Source: a virus
Length of the DNA: 44,528 nt
Virus record (IMG/VR): IMGVR_UViG_3300017706_000505
Location: 1 to 44,528 of that record
Reading direction: 5' to 3' (one strand)
Shown here: piece by piece, positions 30,299-42,682 of the stretch
Position numbering within the stretch: position 1 is the stretch's first letter
How the letters are laid out: each line of letters opens with the position of its first letter
Translations under genes and position numbers: made by a program
The notes under the pieces: generated by a model
Told to the model about the DNA's origin: nothing
Databases searched by the model: none
What the model saw: only the letters and a program-made list of their open reading frames with translations

Positions 30299-31235
30299 TA
30301 GAACTTATTATATAGTCTTTGACAAAAAAGGCAGAATATATAATATTAACAGCACTCCATTGGCAGAGCTAAAAAGTGGCTTGACTCAAATTCAAAGTAA
30401 TAATAAAATATGTAAAAAGATTATAAAAGGTCAAGCAAATCTAAAAAAATATGGAATTGTATGGGACCTTGTTAGTCAACAATGGAATATAAGTAAGCGT
30501 AGCACTAAGTTAATATTGGAATCAGAAGATAACAAACTGTTACCATACTTAACTAATACTAATAGAAAAAGCACAGAAATATTTATTAGTATATACTATA
30601 ATGATAACACCGCAGTAGTATATGCTAACACAACTAAAATTAAAAGTATTAAAAACCTAAGCGATATAACAGAAATATCAACAGAAGAAACGCAACTACT
30701 AGACGTATACATTACAAAAAAGAATGACCCAGATTATCTAGTTACTATACTTAAATTAGATCCATTACAACTTTTTACAACTGGAACACAAGTAATAGAT
30801 CTTGATACAGAACTTAATAGACATATTGATTGGGAAAATATAAGTATGTATGGCAAACCTGTATTTAAGAATTATGGATGGAATTTATTAAAAACACAAT
30901 ATTTTGCTCCATCAAGTTCAAATAATACAGTTGTACAAACGTCAACTAGTGATATTTTAACTAGCATAAATATTAACGTAGTAGATAACAAGTTAACAGT
31001 AGATAGTAATTTATCTGAAGAACAGGATTATTATTTTGAGGGATATAGCAAAATACGAATTGTTGTATGTGATAAGAGCCCAGATAACTTAGTAGGTGCA
31101 ATCGAAGTTCCAGTAAAAGAGTTATTAAAAGAAAAAACATATAATACTACAATAAATTTTAAATGGCCAAAGCAGCCATTGTTGTTATATAAAAGTAATT
31201 ATATAACAATCTCAACAGGAGAAGATAAATGTTAG
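30258..31235 (+). CDS. Unknown 325-aa cargo protein
   Basis: A 325-aa protein of no recognised family. The N-terminus (VDRTYYIVFDKKGRIYNINS, about 13-32) has beta strands. A middle part contains KKNDPDYLVTILKLDPLQLF (near 150-170), and the C-terminal part is again beta-rich and ends IEVPVKELLKEKTYNTTIN. The composition (high Asn, Thr, Ser, Ile) resembles virion or adhesin proteins more than enzymes. The chosen ATG overlaps the previous gene by 41 nt, unusually long for this region, so a later start is possible, although no other Met lies near the N-terminus. It overlaps the nitroreductase-like gene by 7 nt. It could be a structural partner or a glycan-binding protein. Confidence 0.5.
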   Translation: MDTETLTKPHQNVDRTYYIVFDKKGRIYNINSTPLAELKSGLTQIQSNNKICKKIIKGQANLKKYGIVWDLVSQQWNISKRSTKLILESEDNKLLPYLTNTNRKSTEIFISIYYNDNTAVVYANTTKIKSIKNLSDITEISTEETQLLDVYITKKNDPDYLVTILKLDPLQLFTTGTQVIDLDTELNRHIDWENISMYGKPVFKNYGWNLLKTQYFAPSSSNNTVVQTSTSDILTSININVVDNKLTVDSNLSEEQDYYFEGYSKIRIVVCDKSPDNLVGAIEVPVKELLKEKTYNTTINFKWPKQPLLLYKSNYITISTGEDKC

Positions 31236-31984
31236 ATAAAAGTATATGGGAAAATAGGCATACGGCTAGATTGTTTTCAACAGAAAATACAAACATACCG
31301 TTAGACGATTTGAAATATTTACAAACTGTAATAAACAATATACCTAGTCAGTGTAGTATTAAAACTCATTTTTGGGTATATCTAGGACAATCAAAAGAAG
31401 ATATAGAATTGCGTACTTGGTTAGCAGATAATGTATTTTGGGTAATGCAAGAAGAAGAAAAAGAAACAGAGTTCAAAGAACATATGTTGGGTATTATACA
31501 AGCACCAGCAATACTATTAAGTATAAGAACTAATAAGCCTTGGGCAAATATCACAGAGCCAGATAACTCAGATGAATATAACGAAGAGTTAGCAATTAGA
31601 AGTGAAGGCTTCCATGCTGGAGTACTATTGTCTACACTATTAAATATGAATTATAATGTTGCAACGTTTGGTTGCAATTCTGGGTATTATGATAAAGATT
31701 ATGATGAAAAGAGAGATCAGTTTCAAAAAATGATTAGAGAAAGATATGCTGAAGAACTACGTGACTTAGTTTCTAAGTACCCAGGTAAAAAAGGTAATTG
31801 GGATGATATTAAGTTTTATCCAGGATTATCTACTTGCTTTGGTCCAGAAGCAATAGATAAACAAGAAACAGGACAAATGGAAATATGGACTAGTCCTACA
31901 GGAAAGAAATACCATTTTGTTAATGGATCAAAACCAAGAACACCAGCAGAATCGTGTATTGGATTTAGGAGAAATTATGAGTAA
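31229..31984 (+). CDS. Nitroreductase-like flavoprotein (diverged)
   Basis: A 251-aa protein with a nitroreductase-family outline. The N-terminal FMN-binding Arg-rich start is IWENRHTARLF (6-16). A central strand is APAILLSIRTNKPW (92-105). The helix-plus-strand segment EGFHAGVLLSTLLNMNYNVA (126-145) is like the FMN-contacting AxxG helix of the family. Nitroreductase-fold enzymes catalyse FMN-dependent redox steps on quinones, nitro compounds, enones or flavin itself. Some act in natural-product oxidation. Identification is at fold level; sequence drift is strong and a different redox or non-redox role is possible. It overlaps the preceding gene by 7 nt and the following one by 8 nt (ATGAGTAA). 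Confidence 0.5.
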   Translation: MLDKSIWENRHTARLFSTENTNIPLDDLKYLQTVINNIPSQCSIKTHFWVYLGQSKEDIELRTWLADNVFWVMQEEEKETEFKEHMLGIIQAPAILLSIRTNKPWANITEPDNSDEYNEELAIRSEGFHAGVLLSTLLNMNYNVATFGCNSGYYDKDYDEKRDQFQKMIRERYAEELRDLVSKYPGKKGNWDDIKFYPGLSTCFGPEAIDKQETGQMEIWTSPTGKKYHFVNGSKPRTPAESCIGFRRNYE

Positions 31985-32963
31985 TATGCAAAGCATTAAT
32001 GAGTATGATATAGTGTTTATCAGTTATGATGAACCAAACGCAGACGAGAACTACAACGACTTAATTAATAAGGCACCCTGGGCTAAACGTAGCCATGGAG
32101 TATTTGGAAGTGATGCGGCACATAAGGCTGCTGCAGACTTAGCCGAAACAGATAGGTTTATTACTATTGATGCAGACAACATAGTTAGAGATGATTTCTT
32201 TGGCGTTGAAGTAGATATGAGTAGAGTTAGAAGCACAGAAGTTATTAGTTGGGCAGGCAAGAACACAGTAAATGGTTTAGTATATGGCAATGGTGGAATC
32301 AAGTGTTGGCCAAAAGAAGTAGTGTATGGAATGCAAACACATGAGAATGCACCCGCAGGAGATAAGCGAGCTCAAGTAGACTTCTGTTGGAATATTAATT
32401 ACGTACAAATGAATAATATATATTGTGATGTAATGAACAATGCTAGTCCACTACAAGCCTGGCGTGCAGGTTTCCGTGAAGGTGTTAAGATGGGATTAGT
32501 TGACGGCGATGTTATTGATCCTACACAACTGAAACAAAAAGTACACGACAAGAATTATAAAAGATTACTTACATGGATGAGCGTAGGTGATGATGTAGAA
32601 AATGGACTGTGGGCAATATACGGTGCAAGGCTTGGATGTCATATGACAAACATTACTAGAACTGATTGGGATTGGAAAAACGTTAGAGACTTTGATTGGC
32701 TTACAAAATATTATAAAGAAAATGTATTACCTAACTTTGAAGCCAACAGTGATCAATTATGTCCTCGCACTGGAATGAAATGGAATTATAGTACATTACA
32801 AGAAGAAAGCGATAGACTTGGATTTGAAATACGCAAAGAACTAGATTTAGAAATTGCTGACTTAGGCAAAGAAGGTTCACGATTCTTTAAAGAAGTGTAT
32901 ATTAACCCAAGCCGTATGGGCGCCCAAATTAGAGAAGACCAAGTAGAGGATACATTAGAGTAA
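31977..32963 (+). CDS. Glycosyltransferase-like protein
   Basis: A 328-aa protein taken from the ATG at 31977. This start is chosen because a TTTAGGAG ribosome-binding sequence lies just upstream and the overlap with the previous stop is short (8 nt). It has a GT-A-like beginning, YDIVFISYDEPNADENY (10-26), a conserved GVFGSDAAHKAAADLAETDR helix (41-60) and ITIDADNIV (62-70) with the DxD (Asp65, Asp67). The rest contains Trp/Asp-rich segments, including TDWDWKNVRDFDWLTKYY. A sugar-transfer role is likely; donor and acceptor are unknown. Third glycosyltransferase-like protein in a row. Confidence 0.6.
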   Translation: MSNMQSINEYDIVFISYDEPNADENYNDLINKAPWAKRSHGVFGSDAAHKAAADLAETDRFITIDADNIVRDDFFGVEVDMSRVRSTEVISWAGKNTVNGLVYGNGGIKCWPKEVVYGMQTHENAPAGDKRAQVDFCWNINYVQMNNIYCDVMNNASPLQAWRAGFREGVKMGLVDGDVIDPTQLKQKVHDKNYKRLLTWMSVGDDVENGLWAIYGARLGCHMTNITRTDWDWKNVRDFDWLTKYYKENVLPNFEANSDQLCPRTGMKWNYSTLQEESDRLGFEIRKELDLEIADLGKEGSRFFKEVYINPSRMGAQIREDQVEDTLE

Positions 32964-33272
32964 ATGAATATTGGTGTAGACATAGTTTCAATTAATAGAA
33001 TTAGAAAAATCTATAACAAGTATGGAACACGATTCACCGATCAATTTTTAACAGAACAAGAAAAACAAAAAGAACTTACTGCAGAATATATATCAAAATG
33101 TTGGGCAGTAAAAGAAGCATCAATTAAAGCAAGCGGCATAACAGATGCTAAACAATTTTCATATGGAAAGAACGGTAAGCAACCTATTGTGATTACTGAC
33201 GTAAAAGGTACATGGAACCTTAGTGTGTCAGATGAAAAAGACTATACAGTTGCTATGGTAATAAATGACTAA
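32964..33272 (+). CDS. acpS: Compact holo-[acyl carrier protein] synthase (AcpS type)
   Basis: A 102-aa phosphopantetheinyl transferase of the AcpS group. The two catalytic motifs are present: GVDIVSI (4-10, with Asp6) and WAVKEASIKASG (47-58, with Glu51). RFTDQFLTEQE (23-33) supplies the usual substrate-side helix, and a GKQP turn (71-74) precedes the last strands. The enzyme moves the 4'-phosphopantetheine arm from CoA to the serine of an ACP. E. coli AcpS is 126 aa, so this is a trimmed version. The LSxSH motif near the C-terminus is LSVSDEK. An ACP gene with an intact DSL motif lies at 40005, so enzyme and substrate may be a matched pair. The gene starts directly after the upstream stop and overlaps the next by 8 nt. 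Confidence 0.85.
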   Translation: MNIGVDIVSINRIRKIYNKYGTRFTDQFLTEQEKQKELTAEYISKCWAVKEASIKASGITDAKQFSYGKNGKQPIVITDVKGTWNLSVSDEKDYTVAMVIND

Positions 33273-34848
33273 AAAGAAACTAGATAATTTTGAATGGGAA
33301 GTTAACCCTGTTACAAAAAATACAGACCCAACAGATGCAAATAAAAATGCAATGACCAATATGCTTAACAGCACTGGTCCAGGATTTTGTTTAGCAAAGT
33401 GGACACAAGTAACTATGCATCTTGGATCTGGATTAACACATAGTTGTCATCACCCTACTGCACATAAAATTCCATTAGACGAACTTAAAAAGAATCCAAG
33501 TGCATTGCACAATACAAAATTTAAAAAAGAACAACGTAAAGATATGCTTAACGGCATACGTCCTAAAGAATGCGATTACTGTTGGCGAGTAGAAGACAAC
33601 GGTGAAACAAGTGATCGTGTACTTAAAAGTTTAGACTCATTTAGTTTTAAGCACCATGACAAAATAGCAGAACTAGTAGGAGACGAAGATATATTTCCTA
33701 CATATGTAGAAGTAAGTTTTGGACGCACATGCAATTTTAAATGTGCATACTGTGGTCCTGGCTTTAGTAGTCAGTGGGAACAGGAAATTAAAAAACATGG
33801 TGCATACTCGTTAGAGCAAATGGAATTTAATTTAGCAAAAGACTCTGAGAAGCATATACCATTACGTGAACACAATCCATACATTGAAGCATTTTGGGAA
33901 TGGTTCCCTGAAGCATATAAGCATATGAATACGTTTCGTATTACCGGCGGAGAGCCTTTGCTTATTAAAGATACAATGAAAGTTATTGACTTCCTATTAG
34001 ACAATCCAAATCCAAAACTATCATTTGCTATTAACAGTAACGGATGTCCACCAGGAGACTTGTGGGAAGAATTCACTGCAAAAATAAAACAATTAGAAGA
34101 AAGTAAATGTATCAAAGACTTTATATTATTTACTAGTGCAGAAGCAAGTGGAGATAGAAACGACTACGTAAGATATGGAATGGACTATAAACTATGGCAA
34201 GATAATATTGAATACTTTTTAAAGAATACACATGGAGCAGGTGTAACAATTATGAGTGCATTTAATATATTAAGTATTACATCTATTAAAGAAATGCTCG
34301 AATGGGTACTGGTACTAAAACAAGATTACAATTACACAGGTTGGGATAAATGGCTTATTGAAAAAGGATTTACTCGTCCTGCTATAAACGAAGATGCTAG
34401 GCCAATGAACGAAAGACAAAATGAAAAATATAATAAACGTAATCGTGTAATAGTAGATATTCCATATGTAAGGCATCCAGAGTTTTTAGATGCTAGTAAC
34501 ATTACTCCTGATTTAATAGACAAGTATCTTGTACCAGCAATAGACTTTATGTATGAAAATGTAACACACGGCGATTGGTTTGGTAACTTAGGGTTTGATG
34601 CATGGGAGGCAGGCAAGATGCGTAGAATTGTTTTAGATGTTATTAATAAGTCCACACAACACTTTCCAAATAGTTACTTAACAAAAAGTAATGAAGTAAG
34701 AAAAAATAGAACAAGGTTCTACAACTTTGTTGATGAATATGATAGAAGAAGAGATACAAACTTCTTAAAAACATTTCCAGAGTATATAGACTTTTACAAT
34801 TTATGTAAGGAAGAAGAGAAGATATATTATGAAAACACTACACGCTGA
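33265..34848 (+). CDS. Radical SAM protein with N-terminal twitch-type cysteines
   Basis: A 527-aa radical SAM enzyme. The CxxxCxxC that binds the SAM-linked [4Fe-4S] cluster is Cys156-Cys160-Cys163 in TCNFKCAYC. The GGEP motif follows near 228. N-terminal cysteines Cys42, Cys61, Cys103 and Cys106 (the last pair as ECDYC) resemble the auxiliary cluster region of twitch-domain radical SAM proteins. The C-terminal 200 residues are helical with no known domain. Radical SAM enzymes use 5'-deoxyadenosyl radicals for C-H chemistry such as methylation, thioether formation or epimerisation. The substrate is unknown; an ACP-bound, peptide or sugar substrate is plausible from the neighbours. It overlaps AcpS by 8 nt and the next gene by 20 nt. 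Confidence 0.85.
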   Translation: MTKKKLDNFEWEVNPVTKNTDPTDANKNAMTNMLNSTGPGFCLAKWTQVTMHLGSGLTHSCHHPTAHKIPLDELKKNPSALHNTKFKKEQRKDMLNGIRPKECDYCWRVEDNGETSDRVLKSLDSFSFKHHDKIAELVGDEDIFPTYVEVSFGRTCNFKCAYCGPGFSSQWEQEIKKHGAYSLEQMEFNLAKDSEKHIPLREHNPYIEAFWEWFPEAYKHMNTFRITGGEPLLIKDTMKVIDFLLDNPNPKLSFAINSNGCPPGDLWEEFTAKIKQLEESKCIKDFILFTSAEASGDRNDYVRYGMDYKLWQDNIEYFLKNTHGAGVTIMSAFNILSITSIKEMLEWVLVLKQDYNYTGWDKWLIEKGFTRPAINEDARPMNERQNEKYNKRNRVIVDIPYVRHPEFLDASNITPDLIDKYLVPAIDFMYENVTHGDWFGNLGFDAWEAGKMRRIVLDVINKSTQHFPNSYLTKSNEVRKNRTRFYNFVDEYDRRRDTNFLKTFPEYIDFYNLCKEEEKIYYENTTR

Positions 34849-35512
34849 TTTAGGATTACTTAACTTATTATTTTTGCAAGGAGCAGGAGGAAGCTTCCTA
34901 GCAAGTATGATATCTAGAGCAGTAACAGATCCATGGTGGACAGATTACACACCAGAGCCACCAAACAAGTTATTTAAAACAACAAACGAATTTATGAATC
35001 AGTACAATCATATTGTAATGACTCATCACCCATTAGACTTCAGTAAGCAAGATACTAGGTTTAATGTAACTAATACAAAATGGCTTAACTTAACACTTCT
35101 TCCTGAAGAACGTCATTTTACTAATGTAATGACTATGGTAAAGCTACAAGACTACACAGGAATAACAAGACAATACATAAGAGATATGTTGTACGCAACT
35201 AAGGATAGACATTATGAGAGAGCTCACGATTGGCAAGTAACAGTAGCAGATAAACTAAGAAAACAAAACAGCATGTTAGAAGTTAGGTGGAAGCATATAT
35301 TTGAAGATGGCAATCACGATGTAATACTATCAATACTAAATCATATGTTTGCAGGACAGTATAAAGCGGATGGCATAGTAGAAAACATAGCAGTCAAGTG
35401 TATGGCTAAACACGAAGCCGATAAGCATTTATACAATGAGATAAAAGATAATACAGAAGAAACACTAGATAAGATTTTTAAAATAATCGACGAAGAATCC
35501 ACTTCGTCTTAA
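34829..35512 (+). CDS. Sulfotransferase- or P-loop-like protein
   Basis: A 227-aa protein starting with a strand-loop-helix (LLFLQGAGGSFLASMISR, residues 13-30) like the phosphosulfate-binding P-loop of sulfotransferases, though without the classic GxxGxGKS/T kinase loop. A His-rich VMTHHPLDF segment follows (about 63-71). The C-terminus is Glu-rich. It might transfer sulfate from PAPS, or bind a different nucleotide. It overlaps the radical SAM gene by 20 nt and converges with the leftward gene at 35465 (3' overlap of 48 nt). It is the last gene of the first rightward arm. Identity is tentative. Confidence 0.4.
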   Translation: MKTLHADLGLLNLLFLQGAGGSFLASMISRAVTDPWWTDYTPEPPNKLFKTTNEFMNQYNHIVMTHHPLDFSKQDTRFNVTNTKWLNLTLLPEERHFTNVMTMVKLQDYTGITRQYIRDMLYATKDRHYERAHDWQVTVADKLRKQNSMLEVRWKHIFEDGNHDVILSILNHMFAGQYKADGIVENIAVKCMAKHEADKHLYNEIKDNTEETLDKIFKIIDEESTSS

Positions 35513-36436
35513 TTCTAAAGTTATATAATGATTACTATAAGTGTGTGGTGTTGTTTCTATTTCAATTTTTGTAATGTTTGTTACACTATCGTCAACTAAA
35601 TCTATATAAGGCTTAAAGCCAACATCGTCTACATGATGTACATACGTAAAGTCTGTGTCTGGCATTGTATTTGCTATACTATTTAATGTACATAAACTCT
35701 TTGGTATATTATTACAGAAAGAAATATTTCTCAGAGATAATTCAAATCCTATAAAAAAATATTCTTCTATATTATGTTTTTTATTATTTGTATAAAGTGG
35801 AATACATGTACTTGTTCCGCTTTGTATTAAAACGTTACTAGCATTTAATTCCTTAGCAAGCAAACAACTACTGTGACCGTTTTTACAATCAGATACTATA
35901 TTGTAATCAGTATTTGGTATAAGATTTTTAATATAGTTTGCTAATTTCTCTATACTATCAATGTTATCGTTTATCCCTTTGTATAAGCAACTATCAAACA
36001 ATACTGGATTACGTTGACTTCTTTTTACATCTTCAACAATGCTTATAATATTATAATCAGTGAACTCGTCAAACATCCAACTATACTGATGTTCTATTGC
36101 ATTTCTGGAAAGAGCAAGTAACCAACTACCGCCACTTATTGCTATGATAGTTTTTTCTTTGCCTCTATCAATATAAGCAACAGAGTTATTTTGATCTAAT
36201 GTTGCATTGTTTAATGATTCTTGTAAGTATAAGCTGTTTATATTTTTTATACTGCTAAAGTTATCTAAGCACATTTGTCGTTGTTCGTTTGTTACATAAG
36301 TCGACGACATGTACTTTATATGATATTGTTGTGCTAGGTTTGAAAACTCTATACTTTCTTTATTGTTAGCAAAGTTCCAATCCTTATTAACTATATGATC
36401 AGTTACATCACATATGTTATTTGATTCAAACCTCAT
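35465..36436 (-). CDS. Alpha/beta-hydrolase-like protein, unknown
   Basis: A 323-aa protein when started at the ATG at 36436 (TAATG overlap with the previous stop, AGAGG ribosome-binding sequence). The ATG at 36454 is also possible but has no such site. It has an alpha/beta strand pattern: KTIIAISGGSW (95-105), YNIISIVEDVKR (128-139), and YNIVSDCKNGHSSCLLAKEL (178-197). The GHSSC there resembles a nucleophile elbow (GxSxG-like, with the last Gly changed to Cys). A later FIGFELS and YVHHVDD could supply acid and His residues. An esterase or thioesterase is possible, which would make sense next to an ACP, but this is weakly supported. It is the last of three leftward genes within the cargo. Confidence 0.4.
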   Translation of the reverse strand: MRFESNNICDVTDHIVNKDWNFANNKESIEFSNLAQQYHIKYMSSTYVTNEQRQMCLDNFSSIKNINSLYLQESLNNATLDQNNSVAYIDRGKEKTIIAISGGSWLLALSRNAIEHQYSWMFDEFTDYNIISIVEDVKRSQRNPVLFDSCLYKGINDNIDSIEKLANYIKNLIPNTDYNIVSDCKNGHSSCLLAKELNASNVLIQSGTSTCIPLYTNNKKHNIEEYFFIGFELSLRNISFCNNIPKSLCTLNSIANTMPDTDFTYVHHVDDVGFKPYIDLVDDSVTNITKIEIETTPHTYSNHYITLELRRSGFFVDYFKNLI

Positions 36437-37479
36437 TAGTCGCCTCTTTCCCATTTAACTACCATAACATCATTGTAAAAATCTTCAAGCTCGTTATCTG
36501 ATAGTTCTGCTATGTTTGGAATTTTTCCTTTTTCCCAATATGATTCTCTAATAACCATCGGTGCGATCATTTGATAATATTTGTTGTGTTTTATATTTTC
36601 TAATGGAAATGCAACTGATCCATCTTTTGCTAATATAGGAAACATACTATGAGGTATATTCATTTTCTTTGTAATAGAACCCAGCATTTCATGTGTATCA
36701 ATGTGTGGGTACCCCGAACGGAATTGTCTAGGACTATAGTTACTTTGATACATACTAGGTATATGTTCAAGGGCATCATATGCCCAAACGTCTAATGCGT
36801 TTCCTATTCCTATTGCCCATAAGTCCTGACCGTTTGGATATCCAAATGTTCCATTGTATTTTCTAATAAACTCAATTGGTTGAAAAAATAATAAATTTTT
36901 ATCGCCGGTTGCTAGTGTGCTTCTATGTGATACATCTAGTCCTTGTAGTCTATGAAATATATTATTGAATGCAACACTGGGCCAAATAATTGTATCGTAT
37001 CGTTGCATAATAACCATGTCGTAAGTTATGTTGTGTTTGGCTTCGTGCTTTTGCTTTAACATAATCGAGTCTACCCAAGCTGCCAATACTTTAGAATGCA
37101 TAATAGATCCTTCAATATCTTTTAGTTGATTCTCTTTTTTAAGTGAATATATTTTAAATTGTTTTGGATTATAATGTTTTTTTATTTGGTTAGTTTGATG
37201 ATTTATCATATCTTTATTAAGAATATCTTGTTCCATTAGATCTTTATTATTCTCTTTGTTGTACTTGTGTCTTGTATACGTAGTTTCGTAAGGTTTCAAA
37301 CTGCAGAAATAATCTACATTAACGCCCGGAATGTCATAGAATCTTTTTATATATTCTAAACAAGCGTCTCCAGTTCTATATTGCCCATACATACATATAG
37401 CAATATTTTTAATGTCTATTCGACTATGATTTTGATTAGTGTTACTCCATGCTTTCATTCTTGTTTTACCCGTGTTCAT
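36436..37479 (-). CDS. Glycosyltransferase-like protein
   Basis: A 347-aa protein if started at 37479. An upstream in-frame extension to 37560 lies in the reading frame of the neighbour and is less likely. Pattern: NIAICMYGQYRTGDACLEYI (25-44), a mostly alpha/beta N-terminus, and YDMVIMQRYDTIIW (153-166), where the R-Y-D may replace the DxD. The C-terminal part has IDTHEMLGSITKKMNIPHSM and a CYQMIAP-like segment. Proteins of this outline occur in marine phage and bacterial glycan loci. A sugar transferase role is plausible, substrate unknown. It overlaps the 191-aa gene by 14 nt and precedes the hydrolase-like gene with a 1-nt overlap. Confidence 0.5.
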   Translation of the reverse strand: MNTGKTRMKAWSNTNQNHSRIDIKNIAICMYGQYRTGDACLEYIKRFYDIPGVNVDYFCSLKPYETTYTRHKYNKENNKDLMEQDILNKDMINHQTNQIKKHYNPKQFKIYSLKKENQLKDIEGSIMHSKVLAAWVDSIMLKQKHEAKHNITYDMVIMQRYDTIIWPSVAFNNIFHRLQGLDVSHRSTLATGDKNLLFFQPIEFIRKYNGTFGYPNGQDLWAIGIGNALDVWAYDALEHIPSMYQSNYSPRQFRSGYPHIDTHEMLGSITKKMNIPHSMFPILAKDGSVAFPLENIKHNKYYQMIAPMVIRESYWEKGKIPNIAELSDNELEDFYNDVMVVKWERGD

Positions 37480-38041
37480 CTGTAATAATTTTTTCCTCTG
37501 GCCAATTAAGTGCAGTGTATTGTAAATTTCTTTGCCACATAGTTCTTTGCATAATAGCAAAACATTTATCTTTGTCTAAAATATCTGGTTGATTTTTATG
37601 ACTATCTATCCATTTCCATAAACTAACTAATTTCATAAAACTACTGTAACTAGTAACAAACTCAGTAGGTATAGGACCTGGGTTATGTGATTCAGGAGTA
37701 TGCCATTGGGTACTGCCTGCTAATGCCCACTCGTTAAATACAACTGTATTTGGTGGAAGTGTTTTAAACTTTTCTAGTAATCTTTTAAAGTTAAAATTAC
37801 CTTTACTTGCACACACAATAGCATTGTTCATTGCTAGTTCATGATCTCCAAACTTAGTAAACATATCTACTCCATTTTTCCAGTGAGCTTTAAATTTACT
37901 ATATAAAAAATATTCATAGTGACCCCATGCATCCATGTCTGTTTCTTTTGCTTTAAATATTGGCCACGTGGGATCTATAGATGGTGTTTCTTTATCTTCA
38001 GTGCATAAACTTACTAAAATCAATGCCTTTGCTCCTATCAT
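37466..38041 (-). CDS. Unknown 191-aa protein, first gene of the leftward cargo arm
   Basis: A 191-aa protein starting MIGAKALILVSL, with a hydrophobic N-terminal strand (4-12) that may be the first strand of an alpha/beta fold. Aromatic-rich segments follow (MDAWGHYEYFLYSKFKAHW, near 36-54), then NTVVFNEWALAGSTQWHTPE (near 98-117) and FMKLVSLWKWIDSHK. No family is recognised. The ATG lies only about 7 nt downstream of the predicted start from a leftward late-type promoter (GATAAATA, 38054-38061), so the leader would be very short. The gene overlaps the next leftward gene by 14 nt. Confidence 0.5.
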   Translation of the reverse strand: MIGAKALILVSLCTEDKETPSIDPTWPIFKAKETDMDAWGHYEYFLYSKFKAHWKNGVDMFTKFGDHELAMNNAIVCASKGNFNFKRLLEKFKTLPPNTVVFNEWALAGSTQWHTPESHNPGPIPTEFVTSYSSFMKLVSLWKWIDSHKNQPDILDKDKCFAIMQRTMWQRNLQYTALNWPEEKIITDEHG

Positions 38042-38053
38042 TAAGTATGTATA

Positions 38054-38068
38054 TATTTATCATAAATA
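38054..38068. promoter_or_regulatory. Bidirectional late-type promoter, 15-bp palindrome
   Basis: The sequence is TATTTAT-c-ATAAATA, arms of 7 bp. On the plus strand it reads CATAAATA (38061-38068) with a start expected near 38074, the first base of the aminotransferase ATG. On the minus strand it reads GATAAATA (38061-38054) with a start near 38048, 7 nt before the ATG of the 191-aa gene. Thus two late-type promoters share one site and drive two divergent arms of the cargo. Prediction by motif only. Confidence 0.6.
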
Positions 38069-38073
38069 CTATT

Positions 38074-38883
38074 ATGATTACTAAGATGATAGATACTTTT
38101 ATCTTACCCGAAGTACAAGAAGAACTAAACAGTATACAACCAACACTTAACGGAAGACAACCATATAATACAAATATAGTAGAATGGTTATCACCTGTAA
38201 TAGACTTGTCTGACTTCTTTGTTTATCCAGTCAATGGAGTAACTGAAGCAATTAACTGGTGGCAGAATAAAGAGAAACGTAATATACAAAAAGTAATTGG
38301 CGACTACGAGTGGGTAGACACTGGAATACACAGCTTGTACAAAGATAACTATCTTGCACATTCTACACCTGAGTGGGGGCCAGTTCATTACGTATCGTGT
38401 CCTAGTTCAATTGATGGGAACTATACAGATATTCCAACTGATGTTCCTGTAGTGCTTGACATAGCGTATGTGGGAAGTGCTCCTATTAAAAAAATACCTA
38501 TGACACCTAATATAGAAAAAGTATTTTTTAGTTTAAGTAAAAGTTTTGGCATAGGTAATATACGTACAGGTTGGTATTTTACTAAAAGACCCGATGTTAA
38601 ATTACATGCATTACACAACGAAGCAATGTATTATAACTATTGTGCAACTCAGTACGCAGAACATTTAATAAATACATACAGTATTAATTATGTACATAGT
38701 AAACTAAAAGATATACAAACAAAAGTATGTAGCAATTATAATATTACTCCAAGCGATTGTATATGGCTTGCTACATCAACCGATGACAAGTATATTGATT
38801 ATCAGAGAAGCAATAACATTGCAAGACTTTGTATTACAAAATTATTAAAGGAAAAACATGACAAACAAACAAAAAAACATTAG
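38074..38883 (+). CDS. Minimal fold-type-I PLP aminotransferase-like protein
   Basis: A 269-aa protein from the ATG at 38074; the ATG at 38086 is an alternative. The aminotransferase class I core is visible. YPVNGVTEAINWW (51-63) corresponds to the GxxEA turn that holds PLP phosphate. VVLDIAYVGSAPI (126-138) carries Asp129 and Tyr132, which contact the PLP ring. SLSKSFGIGNIRTGW (153-167) contains the Schiff-base lysine Lys156. Typical enzymes have about 380-400 aa, so this one lacks part of the N- and C-terminal small domain. It would transfer an amino group to a keto acid, sugar or ACP-linked ketone; substrate unknown. The transcription start and ATG nearly coincide. It overlaps the next radical SAM gene by 26 nt. 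Confidence 0.7.
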   Translation: MITKMIDTFILPEVQEELNSIQPTLNGRQPYNTNIVEWLSPVIDLSDFFVYPVNGVTEAINWWQNKEKRNIQKVIGDYEWVDTGIHSLYKDNYLAHSTPEWGPVHYVSCPSSIDGNYTDIPTDVPVVLDIAYVGSAPIKKIPMTPNIEKVFFSLSKSFGIGNIRTGWYFTKRPDVKLHALHNEAMYYNYCATQYAEHLINTYSINYVHSKLKDIQTKVCSNYNITPSDCIWLATSTDDKYIDYQRSNNIARLCITKLLKEKHDKQTKKH

Positions 38884-39994
38884 TGCTTTAGATAGAGTAG
38901 ATGCTAAGTCATATGAAGAAATGAACTTGCCTATGACTGGTGATCCTACTAAGGATAATATTACTATCTTAGATGATAAGCCACCGTTGTTTCATAGCAT
39001 TCCCGAATATGATATTGAAAACAATCCTTTTAGCTTTTTGTACGTTGACATGACATACGATTGTAATATGGAATGTGAATTTTGTTATAACCCAGTTAGA
39101 ACATATAGTACACTGGACATTGAATGGTTTGAAGATGTGTGTGCTAAGTTACCACACCCAGTTAACTTTAGACTGTTAGGTGGAGAGCCAACACTATACA
39201 GAGACTTGGGTAGAGCCTTAGATGCATGTACAAAATACGGACACCAGGCAGCAGTAGTTACAAATGGTTTGCGTTTAGCAAGCATGAACTACGCAAAAAA
39301 ATTAAAAGTAATACTTGATAGAAACCCAACAGTGAATGTGTCATTGTCAATGAACGGCGGACTACATCACGATGATTGGTATATTGAAATTGATGGCGAG
39401 AGCAGACGAGAGAAAAAAGTTAAGGCACTAGAAAATATGATGGAGTTAGGATACAGACGTGTTTGTATTAATGCTATCATTGTTAAAGGCCTCAATGAAG
39501 GATTAGTAAAAGAATTTTATGATAAGGCATTACAACACCCAGGACAGATAACAAACATACGTTTCCGAACTGCGGCTAAACAAGGTCGTTGGGACGAAGA
39601 GATATTTGATGAAGGTGAACAAACAAGTTATACGGGTTTACAATTAGATGAGTATATTAAAAGTGTTATACCAGAAGCACGTAACCCTATTAAAACAATA
39701 CGTGATGGTTATCATCCTAGTACAGGTTCAGGTGTAAGACTTAATAACCCAGATTTAAAATGTAATCAATGTTGTTTTATGTATTACATACGACCACAAC
39801 TATGGGTTGCAACTGTTGAATTTGGATCACATAACAGTGCGTTATGTTGGAGACGTGGACAACTAGTACAAGGTAATCAAGTTATACAACCGTTCCATCA
39901 TTATATGGACGAGCTTAGTAGGTATATACAAACGTATAAACCAAGCGGAATCAAAGAGACTGCTAAAACAAAAAGTATACCAATACAAGAATAA
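38858..39994 (+). CDS. Radical SAM protein with C-terminal cysteine cluster
   Basis: A 378-aa radical SAM enzyme. The CxxxCxxC is Cys69-Cys73-Cys76 in CNMECEFC, followed by GGEP at 108-111. The core continues with VTNGLRL and SLSMNGG strands. The C-terminal part has extra cysteines: Cys302, Cys305, Cys306 (KCNQCC) and Cys330 (LCWRRG), which may bind a second Fe-S cluster as in SPASM or twitch proteins. The N-terminus, unlike the other two radical SAM proteins of the cluster, has no Cys-rich domain. Start at 38858 with AAGGAAAA upstream, overlapping the aminotransferase by 26 nt. It is followed by the ACP gene after 10 nt, suggesting a carrier-bound substrate. Confidence 0.85.
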   Translation: MTNKQKNISALDRVDAKSYEEMNLPMTGDPTKDNITILDDKPPLFHSIPEYDIENNPFSFLYVDMTYDCNMECEFCYNPVRTYSTLDIEWFEDVCAKLPHPVNFRLLGGEPTLYRDLGRALDACTKYGHQAAVVTNGLRLASMNYAKKLKVILDRNPTVNVSLSMNGGLHHDDWYIEIDGESRREKKVKALENMMELGYRRVCINAIIVKGLNEGLVKEFYDKALQHPGQITNIRFRTAAKQGRWDEEIFDEGEQTSYTGLQLDEYIKSVIPEARNPIKTIRDGYHPSTGSGVRLNNPDLKCNQCCFMYYIRPQLWVATVEFGSHNSALCWRRGQLVQGNQVIQPFHHYMDELSRYIQTYKPSGIKETAKTKSIPIQE

Positions 39995-40004
39995 GGAAAA
40001 TAAA

Positions 40005-40250
40005 ATGAATAAAGAAGAAGTAAGAGAAAAAATGTATTCATTGTTAACAGTGGGATTGTTTTTAGATGACGGTTCTAAGTTTGATATGGATACTACATTT
40101 GGTGAAGACTTGGGTTTGGATAGTTTAGATAAAGTAGAAATCAAACTAACAATCGAAGATGGCATGGGAATAATTTTACCAGAAGATAGTTTTGCGGGCG
40201 ATGTTATTACTGTAGAAGATGCAGTTAACTTAGTCATGGAACATGTATAA
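40005..40250 (+). CDS. acpP: Acyl carrier protein
   Basis: An 81-aa ACP-type four-helix protein. The phosphopantetheine attachment site is Ser40 in DLGLDSLDKVEI (35-46), the conserved DSL motif. The acidic composition and the VEIKLTIEDG helix II are typical. It carries acyl or other thioester groups on its 4'-phosphopantetheine arm once activated by AcpS, encoded 7 kb upstream. The gene has its own AAGGAAAA ribosome-binding sequence 10 nt after the radical SAM gene and overlaps the HAD gene by 8 nt. No fatty acid synthase or polyketide synthase genes are nearby, so the attached group and partner enzymes are uncertain. Confidence 0.9.
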   Translation: MNKEEVREKMYSLLTVGLFLDDGSKFDMDTTFGEDLGLDSLDKVEIKLTIEDGMGIILPEDSFAGDVITVEDAVNLVMEHV

Positions 40251-40839
40251 GTCTATAATATTTGACTTCGATGGTACACTAGCAGACTGTAAAGAGTTAC
40301 ATCAAACTGCATTTCGTAATGCAGTAGAAGAGCTTTGTCCTAGTGCAGAGTTTAACAATGAAGACATAGAGGGCAGACCAACACGTGAGAAGATACGTAT
40401 ACTACACACAATGGGTTACGACTTTAACGGAGATAAGTTAAACGATATTAAACAAGCATATACACAAGAACACTTACCAGAGTATATAAAGTACAACGAA
40501 GAATTACGTAATGAAATGCTAAGGCTACAAAAGAAATATAAATTATGTGTGGCAAGTAATGCCACAGAATTATTTGTACTCAGAAGTTTAAGTATTATGC
40601 AATTGTACAACGATTCAGGAGAACAAGTGTTTGAGAAAATTAATACTGCAACTGACTTTCCAGCTAAACCAGATACAACAACATTCTTTGATTGTATGAG
40701 ATGGACAGACAGCACACCAGACAATACTATTATATTTGAAGATAGTGTAGTTGGAATACAATGTGCATTAAGCACAGGTGCACAAGTTGTTAGAGTAATA
40801 GATGTGAATCACACTATAGAGGAAATGAAGAAACTATGA
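40243..40839 (+). CDS. HAD-superfamily phosphatase/phosphomutase-like protein
   Basis: A 198-aa HAD hydrolase of the beta-phosphoglucomutase/phosphoglycolate type. Motif I is DFDGT (8-12, Asp8 and Asp10). Motif II is around CVASNAT (near 104-110), and motif III/IV around FPAKPDTTTFF and IIFEDSVVGIQCA (acidic pair near Glu-Asp). The small cap domain lies between motif I and II. It would remove or move a phosphate on a small phosphorylated intermediate. It sits between ACP (8-nt overlap) and the nucleotidyltransferase (4-nt overlap, ATGA), so a sugar- or polyol-phosphate step that feeds the nucleotidyltransferase is plausible. Confidence 0.8.
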   Translation: MYKSIIFDFDGTLADCKELHQTAFRNAVEELCPSAEFNNEDIEGRPTREKIRILHTMGYDFNGDKLNDIKQAYTQEHLPEYIKYNEELRNEMLRLQKKYKLCVASNATELFVLRSLSIMQLYNDSGEQVFEKINTATDFPAKPDTTTFFDCMRWTDSTPDNTIIFEDSVVGIQCALSTGAQVVRVIDVNHTIEEMKKL

Positions 40840-41546
40840 AACTAATTATGCCAATGGCTGGACAAGGAAGTCGCTTTGACGAAGTGGGTTATGATTTACC
40901 CAAGCCAATGATACCTGTAAGAGATGTTCCTATGTTTGTACACGTAGAGCGTTGCATAGACTTAGAGTTTGATGAACGCATATTTATTGTACGCAAAGAA
41001 CATGATATACGATCAAGGGTCCTTGAATGGTATCCTGATGCACATGTGATTGAACTAGACTACTTAACAGAAGGTACTGCATGTACCATACTAACTGCAA
41101 GAGAGCATTATGAAGACGGTAGCAGTATCTTTATTAGTAACTGTGATCAACACATAGAATGGGATAGCGAGCATGCAGAAAGCATTATGAACAATCCCTA
41201 TAACAGTGGAATGATTCCAAACTTTTACTGCGACGATGGATCAAAGAAATGGAGTTACGCAATGGTAGACGATAGACAAAACATCAAACGTGTAGCTGAA
41301 AAAGATCCCATAAGCAATTGGGCAACTGTAGGTTACTATTGGTGGAGAGATGGTAATCAGTTTATACAAAGTGTAGATGCTATGATGAAAGCCAACGATA
41401 GAGTTAACAACGAGTTCTATACTTGTCCTACATTTAATTACACAATAGCACTAGAAGGAATTGGTAATATTAAACACATGGAAGTAGATGTTATGCAAGG
41501 ACTAGGAACTCCAGAAGACCTAGAACAGTACAAGGAATTATACTAA
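40836..41546 (+). CDS. Sugar-phosphate-type nucleotidyltransferase
   Basis: A 236-aa GT-A fold nucleotidyltransferase. Signature MPMAGQGSRFDEVGYDLPKP is at 5-24 (the GxGxRxxxxxxxxPKP nucleotide-binding loop, Lys23). LTEGTACTILTA (77-88) matches the base-binding segment, and SNCDQHIEWD (101-110, Asp104) the metal-binding motif. It would couple an NTP to a sugar, polyol or aminoalcohol phosphate and release pyrophosphate. Phage copies are known in glycan gene clusters. It follows the HAD gene by an ATGA overlap and its own TAATG stop/start junction begins the next radical SAM gene. Substrate specificity cannot be read from the sequence. Confidence 0.85.
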   Translation: MKLIMPMAGQGSRFDEVGYDLPKPMIPVRDVPMFVHVERCIDLEFDERIFIVRKEHDIRSRVLEWYPDAHVIELDYLTEGTACTILTAREHYEDGSSIFISNCDQHIEWDSEHAESIMNNPYNSGMIPNFYCDDGSKKWSYAMVDDRQNIKRVAEKDPISNWATVGYYWWRDGNQFIQSVDAMMKANDRVNNEFYTCPTFNYTIALEGIGNIKHMEVDVMQGLGTPEDLEQYKELY

Positions 41547-42682
41547 TGTCAGATAGTATCTGTGCGGCATTATGGTCACACGGACGAGTTGATGTAACTA
41601 TGAAAGTATATCCATGTTGTAGGTGGAGAGCAAACTTTACAGGCGAACGTGATACTTTACCACATATATCAGATGGCATAGAAGCTGCAATTAACAGTGA
41701 TTACTTTAATACTGTTAGAAAAAAGATGCAAGCCGGAGAAGTAATACCTCAATGTAAACAATGTACAAACGAAGAAGAAGTTGGTGTTACTAGTATGCGA
41801 AACAGAATGAATGAGTCATACGGCAAGTATATTAATACAACTCCAAAGATAAGAGATTTAGAACTAGCATTTAGTACGCATTGCAACTTGGCTTGTAGAA
41901 TGTGTAGTCCAGAAGCTAGTAGTAAGTGGAGTTTAATTGTTAATCCCAAAATGAAAGTAGATACAAGTGTTATCTCAAACGAACTAAGTAACTTTGATCA
42001 CGACTGGAGTGAACTAGATAATATAAAAATGGTAGGCGGTGAACCACTTCTTGCAAAGGATCATTACAAATATCTCGAATACTTTATTACACAAACAAAT
42101 CGTCCTGAAGAATTAACTCTTGTTTATCACACAAACGGAACTATATTTCCCAACAAAAACATTATAAACTATTGGAAAAAGATTAAAAAAGTTAGAATAA
42201 TATTAAGTGTTGATGCATATGGAAAACTAAACAACTATCTAAGACCAGGACAAAGCGATTGGGAAACAATTAATGCAAACCTTGATAAGTTTAAAAACAT
42301 ACCAGGTGTGAATACAGAGATAGGAACACATTCAGTTATATCAAGTATAGGTGCTTTGCAATTGGATAAACTTGTTGAATGGTTAAACAACACAGTTGAG
42401 TTTAATAATAGTTCGTTTGATATACTGCATCACCCACCTCACTTGTCAATCATGAACATAGTTGATCAAGAGAAACATAAGATTAGAGAACATATTAAAC
42501 TACTACAAGATAAGTTTGGTCATATAAATGGATTAGAGTCTAAGGTTATTTCAATAGTAGAACAAGCATTAAACGAAACTCCCAAACTACAATTCACAAT
42601 ACAAGATATTGCAGAACGAGAAAAACGATTAGATAAATATTTTAAACAGGACTTTTACAATGACACAATTCGTAGCACATAG
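41546..42682 (+). CDS. Radical SAM protein with N-terminal twitch-type cysteines
   Basis: A 378-aa radical SAM enzyme. The CxxxCxxC is Cys113-Cys117-Cys120 in HCNLACRMC, and GGEP is at 164-167. Cysteines before the core (Cys6, Cys24, Cys25 in YPCCRW, and Cys70, Cys73 in QCKQC) match the twitch-type auxiliary cluster pattern, as in the 527-aa protein at 33265, but here the protein is shorter at the C-terminus. The two are probably related paralogues. It begins on the last base of the nucleotidyltransferase stop (TAATG) and overlaps the GDPD-like gene by 23 nt. Confidence 0.85.
   Translation: MSDSICAALWSHGRVDVTMKVYPCCRWRANFTGERDTLPHISDGIEAAINSDYFNTVRKKMQAGEVIPQCKQCTNEEEVGVTSMRNRMNESYGKYINTTPKIRDLELAFSTHCNLACRMCSPEASSKWSLIVNPKMKVDTSVISNELSNFDHDWSELDNIKMVGGEPLLAKDHYKYLEYFITQTNRPEELTLVYHTNGTIFPNKNIINYWKKIKKVRIILSVDAYGKLNNYLRPGQSDWETINANLDKFKNIPGVNTEIGTHSVISSIGALQLDKLVEWLNNTVEFNNSSFDILHHPPHLSIMNIVDQEKHKIREHIKLLQDKFGHINGLESKVISIVEQALNETPKLQFTIQDIAEREKRLDKYFKQDFYNDTIRST

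Follow-up and report, generated by a model that had tools for sequence, protein, structure and literature searches.

Holo-ACP synthases (AcpS) of bacteria, such as those of E. coli (5xu7/5vcb), V. cholerae (3qmn), and B. anthracis (3hyk), are about 115–126 aa long and share a whole-chain fold with a catalytic Asp/Glu/Lys. In phages, acyl carrier proteins (ACPs) are usually read as fatty acid auxiliary genes (PMC8224337, PMC5463345, PMC11705849), and a literature search of incomplete coverage found no paper reporting a phage AcpS. Pelagimyophages have a hypervariable host-recognition island, with variable genes, glycosyltransferases, and radical SAM cassettes beside the tail, and an acyl carrier protein is not mentioned in the main text of its description (PMC7029224). 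The window, which is the whole 44,528-nt stretch of viral DNA analyzed here, shares these features of the island but derives from a large marine phage that is closer to jumbo myophages than to pelagimyophages, being related to Phosso, Atu_ph07, and SCTP-2. Its AcpS has the same fold and catalytic residues as the bacterial enzymes but is phage encoded and located inside a variable island. What is new is an AcpS–ACP pair in an exchangeable phage module that recurs across phages, a pairing that has been little described.

The AcpS gene begins immediately behind the stop codon of the gene upstream and shares 8 nt with the gene that follows (table 1). Its product matches PF01648 (E=9.6e-11; 42.2 bits against a curated cut-off of 25) and the NCBIfam model TIGR00556 (47.8 bits; cut-off 45.35). 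The score against TIGR00516 (acpS; E=3e-12, 46.9 bits) is under the cut-off of 59.8, to which the short length of the protein contributes, and the best sequence match in the PDB is the AcpS 3hyk (E=1e-7, residues 2–100 aligned). Pfam, NCBIfam, and the PDB thus agree, at the level of sequence, on a real AcpS, a group I phosphopantetheinyl transferase, consistent with what a sequence-only reading had proposed. The phage AcpS occurs in eight IMG/VR contigs. Among phage relatives, dN/dS is ∼0.05–0.17. Such values reflect purifying selection, so the gene is not a chance ORF and its protein has been kept functional. It adds one more member to a known family, its mechanism is ordinary, and it is very probably an active enzyme. 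In a tree of AcpS sequences, the phage clade has no supported neighbor.

Table 1. Features of the AcpS–ACP region, with coordinates in the window
Feature	Coordinates	Strand	Remarks
Anchor gene just upstream of AcpS	31998..32963	+	Conserved; without a Pfam match; 106 IMG/VR stretches have confirmed relatives
AcpS (holo-ACP synthase)	32964..33272	+	102 aa; ATG start
Twitch-domain radical SAM protein	33265..34848	+	NF033640, E=1.8e-89; backbone
Module gene	34829..35512	+	Only together with AcpS/ACP (anchored loci)
Module gene	35465..36454	-	Without informative family match; only with AcpS/ACP (anchored loci)
Module gene	36436..37560	-	Glycosyltransferase-like by eye, without database support
Module gene	37466..38041	-	Only together with AcpS/ACP (anchored loci)
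Compact PLP aminotransferase-like protein	37981..38883	+	Likely true start downstream of 37981
Radical SAM protein	38858..39994	+	Best solved relative tetraether lipid synthase 7tol, E=1e-9
Acyl carrier protein	40005..40250	+	81 aa; phosphopantetheine expected on Ser40 of DSL
HAD-family phosphatase/mutase	40243..40839	+	Outside strict module
Nucleotidyltransferase, sugar-nucleotide type	40836..41546	+	PF00483
Second twitch-domain radical SAM protein	41546..42682	+	NF033640, E=1.3e-77

Structure prediction returned an AcpS fold; as regards fold, the sequence-only reading thereby withstands the refutation it had named, a predicted fold that lacks the CoA pocket. With a 31-sequence alignment that included 24 diverse AcpS homologues, AlphaFold2 modeled the protein at a pLDDT of 95.5 and a pTM of 0.88; an alignment of seven near-identical phage AcpS alone gave a pLDDT of 37 and no usable fold. 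The top Foldseek matches of the model were all AcpS, and VIA-align superposed it on E. coli AcpS (5xu7) with a Z of 16.1 at 1.4 Å over 102 of 102 residues. The window protein is therefore predicted to have the single-domain AcpS fold. Relative to other AcpS, residues are absent from the loops that follow Glu33 and the long helix and from the β3–β4 segment, the last of which is nearly absent. A comparison of three AcpS structures found this segment to be variable, with a helix in Vibrio but a loop in Staphylococcus and Bacillus, and placed differences of this kind away from the parts needed for trimerization (PMC3447402). The enzyme had been described as trimmed, and it is indeed shorter than bacterial AcpS, but there is nothing strange in losing loops and a variable segment. 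The accompanying suggestion of a trimer interface changed by the shortening is not supported, as the missing segments lie outside the trimerization surface (PMC3447402) and the protein aligns with E. coli AcpS over its full length; it would most likely form the usual trimer.

Catalytic residues are conserved. D6, E51, K55, G71, and P74 are invariant in the 31-sequence alignment, and D6, E51, and K55, the counterparts of Asp8, Glu58, and Lys62 of B. anthracis, are kept in all phage relatives; the first two had been correctly picked out from the sequence. In V. cholerae AcpS, CoA is contacted by Asp8, Glu57, Lys61, Lys51, Ser111, and Asp112 (PMC3447402), which in our own alignment map to D6, E51, K55, K45, S89, and D90, with all six kept. 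Because S89-D90 correspond to Ser111/Asp112, the SD that replaces SH is of the Vibrio type. The motif LSVSDEK at residues 86–92 had been read correctly but its departure from SH is ordinary, as SDE or ADE is carried by V. cholerae- and E. coli-type AcpS. Two features are truly odd. The first is that Cys46-Trp47 takes the place of the Arg-Phe found in most AcpS. Cys46 aligns with Arg53 of the B. anthracis enzyme, which contacts the 3'-phosphate, and the H. pylori enzyme, which was solved with CoA, also lacks this arginine (the aligned residue is Phe). The invariance of Arg-Phe in the AcpS set that we fetched is not evidence, since the DNA pattern used for fetching required that pair. The second odd feature, also a difference from bacterial AcpS, is an extra glutamine, Gln73, inserted inside the GKP motif and conserved across all phage AcpS relatives.

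The ACP that had been suspected 7 kb from AcpS is real. It matches PF00550 above the cut-off (23.7 bits vs. 20.8), and a PDB profile search returned solved ACPs with E-values down to 2.8e-10. TIGR00517 matches with E=1e-11, but at 44.5 bits does not reach its cut-off of 70.45, so the protein is not filed as an AcpP of fatty acid synthesis. The serine of the DSL motif is invariant among its relatives, and in ACPs of the module, recognition helix II has lysine at positions 43 and 47 without exception (K43 and K47); the former is also found in the solved ACP 7arc. The ACP and HAD genes share 8 nt.

Presence of the ACP correlates with that of AcpS among related phages. In a sample of 80 related-phage loci anchored on the gene at 31998–32963, AcpS lies behind the anchor in seven. 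All five AcpS-bearing loci that extend 7.3 kb downstream have an ACP, as opposed to none of 53 AcpS-lacking loci of equal reach. Fisher's exact P of 2e-7 for this linkage is overstated because three of the five AcpS-bearing loci are near-identical; the sample holds about three independent AcpS-bearing lineages plus the window, with anchor DNA 78–93% alike. No PP-binding match was found in 48 whole records without AcpS at the anchor slot. One of these records (G048) carries an AcpS elsewhere, of a different type (121 aa), and no ACP was found there. A further exception is L009, whose AcpS is 80% identical and in which no ACP was found on a 91-kb fragment. The AcpS of L009 is in a nucleotide-metabolism region (L009:4133–14432), beside thymidylate synthase and several radical SAM genes.

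Most genes between AcpS and ACP follow the same pattern. In anchored loci, the genes at 34829, 35465, 37466, and 37981, like the ACP gene, occur only alongside AcpS, and outside AcpS-bearing loci the relatives of those at 38858 and 36436 are all distant, and for the latter are in six of the 53 AcpS-lacking loci. The gene at 33265–34848 has a homologue in 50 of the 53 and thus belongs to the backbone. The HAD and nucleotidyltransferase genes of the window (82% and 97%) are shared with L087 and L088, both of which lack AcpS and ACP, placing the edges of the module at AcpS and ACP. AcpS, ACP, and most genes between them are gained or lost as one swappable module. The earlier pairing of a phage AcpS with a phage ACP is hence backed by co-occurrence in related loci as well as in other phages (see below).

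In this myophage, the module immediately follows the tail genes. Its radical SAM protein is highly conserved (86–93%), and the structure closest to it is of an archaeal enzyme. The gene at 37981–38883 is a candidate aminotransferase; matches around the lysine of an SLSK motif are weak but consistent, including one of an orthologue to PF00155 that is below the cut-off (E=0.002). We found no AMP-binding ligase in the window or in records of AcpS-bearing relatives, nor did we recognize another evident enzyme for loading or unloading the ACP, or any fab genes near the AcpS of the window. A scan for promoters performed no better than the level of chance. A terminator-like, bidirectional hairpin (35489–35508) lies between the convergent genes at 34829 and 35465. 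Upstream of the anchor, a 251-aa gene (31229–31984) is nitroreductase-like by eye, is without a family match, and is present in some relatives only (53–56% identity in L085–L088). The twitch-domain radical SAM family, with members at 33265–34848 and 41546–42682, adjoins tail genes in most relatives of this phage.

As a whole, these data are probably best explained by a working AcpS that activates the phage ACP for a phage-encoded, carrier-tethered pathway. AcpS would move 4'-phosphopantetheine from CoA to Ser40 of the phage ACP, and holo-ACP would then serve a pathway involving the PLP aminotransferase-like protein, the radical SAM protein, and other enzymes of the module, with which the neighboring HAD and nucleotidyltransferase may work together. 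We have good confidence that the AcpS is dedicated to this ACP, given their shared inheritance. Speaking against this explanation are the lack of a recognized loading enzyme, the AcpS of L009 with no ACP found on its fragment, and the Cys46 and Gln73 changes. The product would be an unusual acyl or amino-acyl group on a sugar of virion fibers or of the host surface; a glycan of either would be the site because the module is right behind tail genes, and the resemblance of this variable site to the pelagimyophage island likewise suggests a role in surface or glycan modification. As the destination rests on gene neighborhood, we give a product that is a surface or glycan building block somewhat less than an even chance. 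More tentatively, the phage's holo-ACP, served by a dedicated orthogonal AcpS, could hold a substrate on which the compact PLP enzyme acts along with a radical SAM enzyme that resembles a lipid synthase, to make a surface group that is swapped as a cassette. If true, this would be an undescribed system that makes a new chemical group to alter the surface of the virion or host. Because AcpS and ACP bracket most of a co-inherited gene set, the genes of the module are concrete candidates for the pathway.

Compatible with a dedicated AcpS, though rather unlikely, is an orthogonal pair in which the host enzyme fails to recognize the phage ACP. Joint inheritance of the two genes, the invariant K43 and K47 of recognition helix II, and the changes near CoA in AcpS (C46 and the Q73 insertion) are in line with such a pair, yet K43 is not peculiar to module ACPs, being present in 7arc, and AcpS enzymes are often promiscuous. 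It is improbable that the phage AcpS mainly converts the host ACP pool, as a boost to fatty acid or lipid synthesis, with the phage ACP as an extra copy. The usual interpretation of phage ACPs would fit, as would AcpS without a detected ACP on the L009 fragment and, with its different 121-aa type, in G048. However, AcpS lies among radical SAM, PLP-type, and nucleotidyltransferase genes rather than recognizable fab genes, the ACP is gained and lost along with AcpS and the module, and by its TIGR00517 score it is far from bacterial AcpP. Loss of phosphopantetheine transfer through decay or repurposing of an AcpS-like protein, which the shortness, Cys-Trp pair, and Q73 insertion might be taken to indicate, is very unlikely, given D6, E51, and K55 in all relatives, strong purifying selection, a full AcpS fold in the predicted model, and the H. 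pylori precedent for lacking the arginine.

Activation of a phage ACP by a phage AcpS may not be restricted to relatives of this phage. The phage AcpS had no match in a set of 50,697 phage records. Nine of these were matched by a Chlorobium AcpS, eight of which are unannotated Listeria, Enterococcus, and Staphylococcus records that are likely host DNA. Microcystis phage MaAM05 (L028, MW495066.1 115855–146238) was dropped as a precedent, as glyS, secDF, scpAB, and smc surround its acpS; record MW495066.1 may include bacterial sequence. The sole match in a scan of genome contigs was an ordinary Chlorobium AcpS of 119 aa. Of 56 stretches of IMG/VR retrieved with a DNA pattern, nearly all encode AcpS and many look bacterial. 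The pairing of AcpS with ACP nevertheless recurs in other phage backgrounds, at least four in number, in two of which the pair adjoins an AMP-binding ligase.

Five contigs with AcpS and an ACP-like gene (L032, L033, L053, L058, and L071; G074/G089/G060/G077/G061) represent a phage type with a PriCT-2 primase, an SNF2 helicase, and an Enc34-type ssDNA-binding protein, families that were checked on L058, with L032, L033, L053, and L071 assigned by gene resemblance. Their ACP-like genes are weak matches to PF00550. The AcpS of L058 and L033 is, at 107 aa, nearly as short as that of the window, to which it is about 40% identical, has the motif LSISDEKDY, and has the ACP-like gene a few kb away; these phages differ in type from that of the window, and the radical SAM module was not seen in them.

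In G070, AcpS adjoins two ACPs, and in G082 (L179), ACP, AcpS, and ligase are in this order inside a nucleotide-sugar cluster; both are taken as phages on the basis of IMG/VR and of their gene content, judged by eye. Like the window, G082 has a PLP aminotransferase and a nucleotidyltransferase near its phage ACP and AcpS, which are adjacent. Unlike the window, it has AMP-binding ligase, SDR, and nucleotide-sugar dehydratase genes, its aminotransferase is of the DegT type, and a radical SAM partner was not seen. The cluster (L179:6193–14819 of a 28.6-kb record) encodes an NTP transferase, the DegT aminotransferase, a hexapeptide transferase, ACP, AcpS, the AMP-binding ligase, the SDR, and the dehydratase-like protein, and looks like an acyl-sugar cluster. 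In G075, a 316-kb viral contig, an AMP-binding ligase, an ACP-like protein, and AcpS are consecutive (L054:32–2242). Phages often carry an ACP; its pairing with AcpS in several unrelated phages, in places together with a loading ligase, suggests that holo-ACP is under phage control and that such ACPs serve chemistry run by the phage rather than a simple boost of host fatty acid synthesis.

Genes of the window module also have relatives in a different setting. On viral contig L021 (581–6328), radical SAM, SET-domain, thiolase, compact aminotransferase, and AMP-binding ligase genes are clustered. Relatives of the proteins encoded at 38858 (61%) and 37981 (49%) there adjoin the thiolase and the AMP-binding ligase. 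Both of the latter are enzymes of thioester chemistry, which points to carrier- or CoA-bound chemistry in two gene settings, and L021:581–6328 is possibly a second form of the pathway of the window module.
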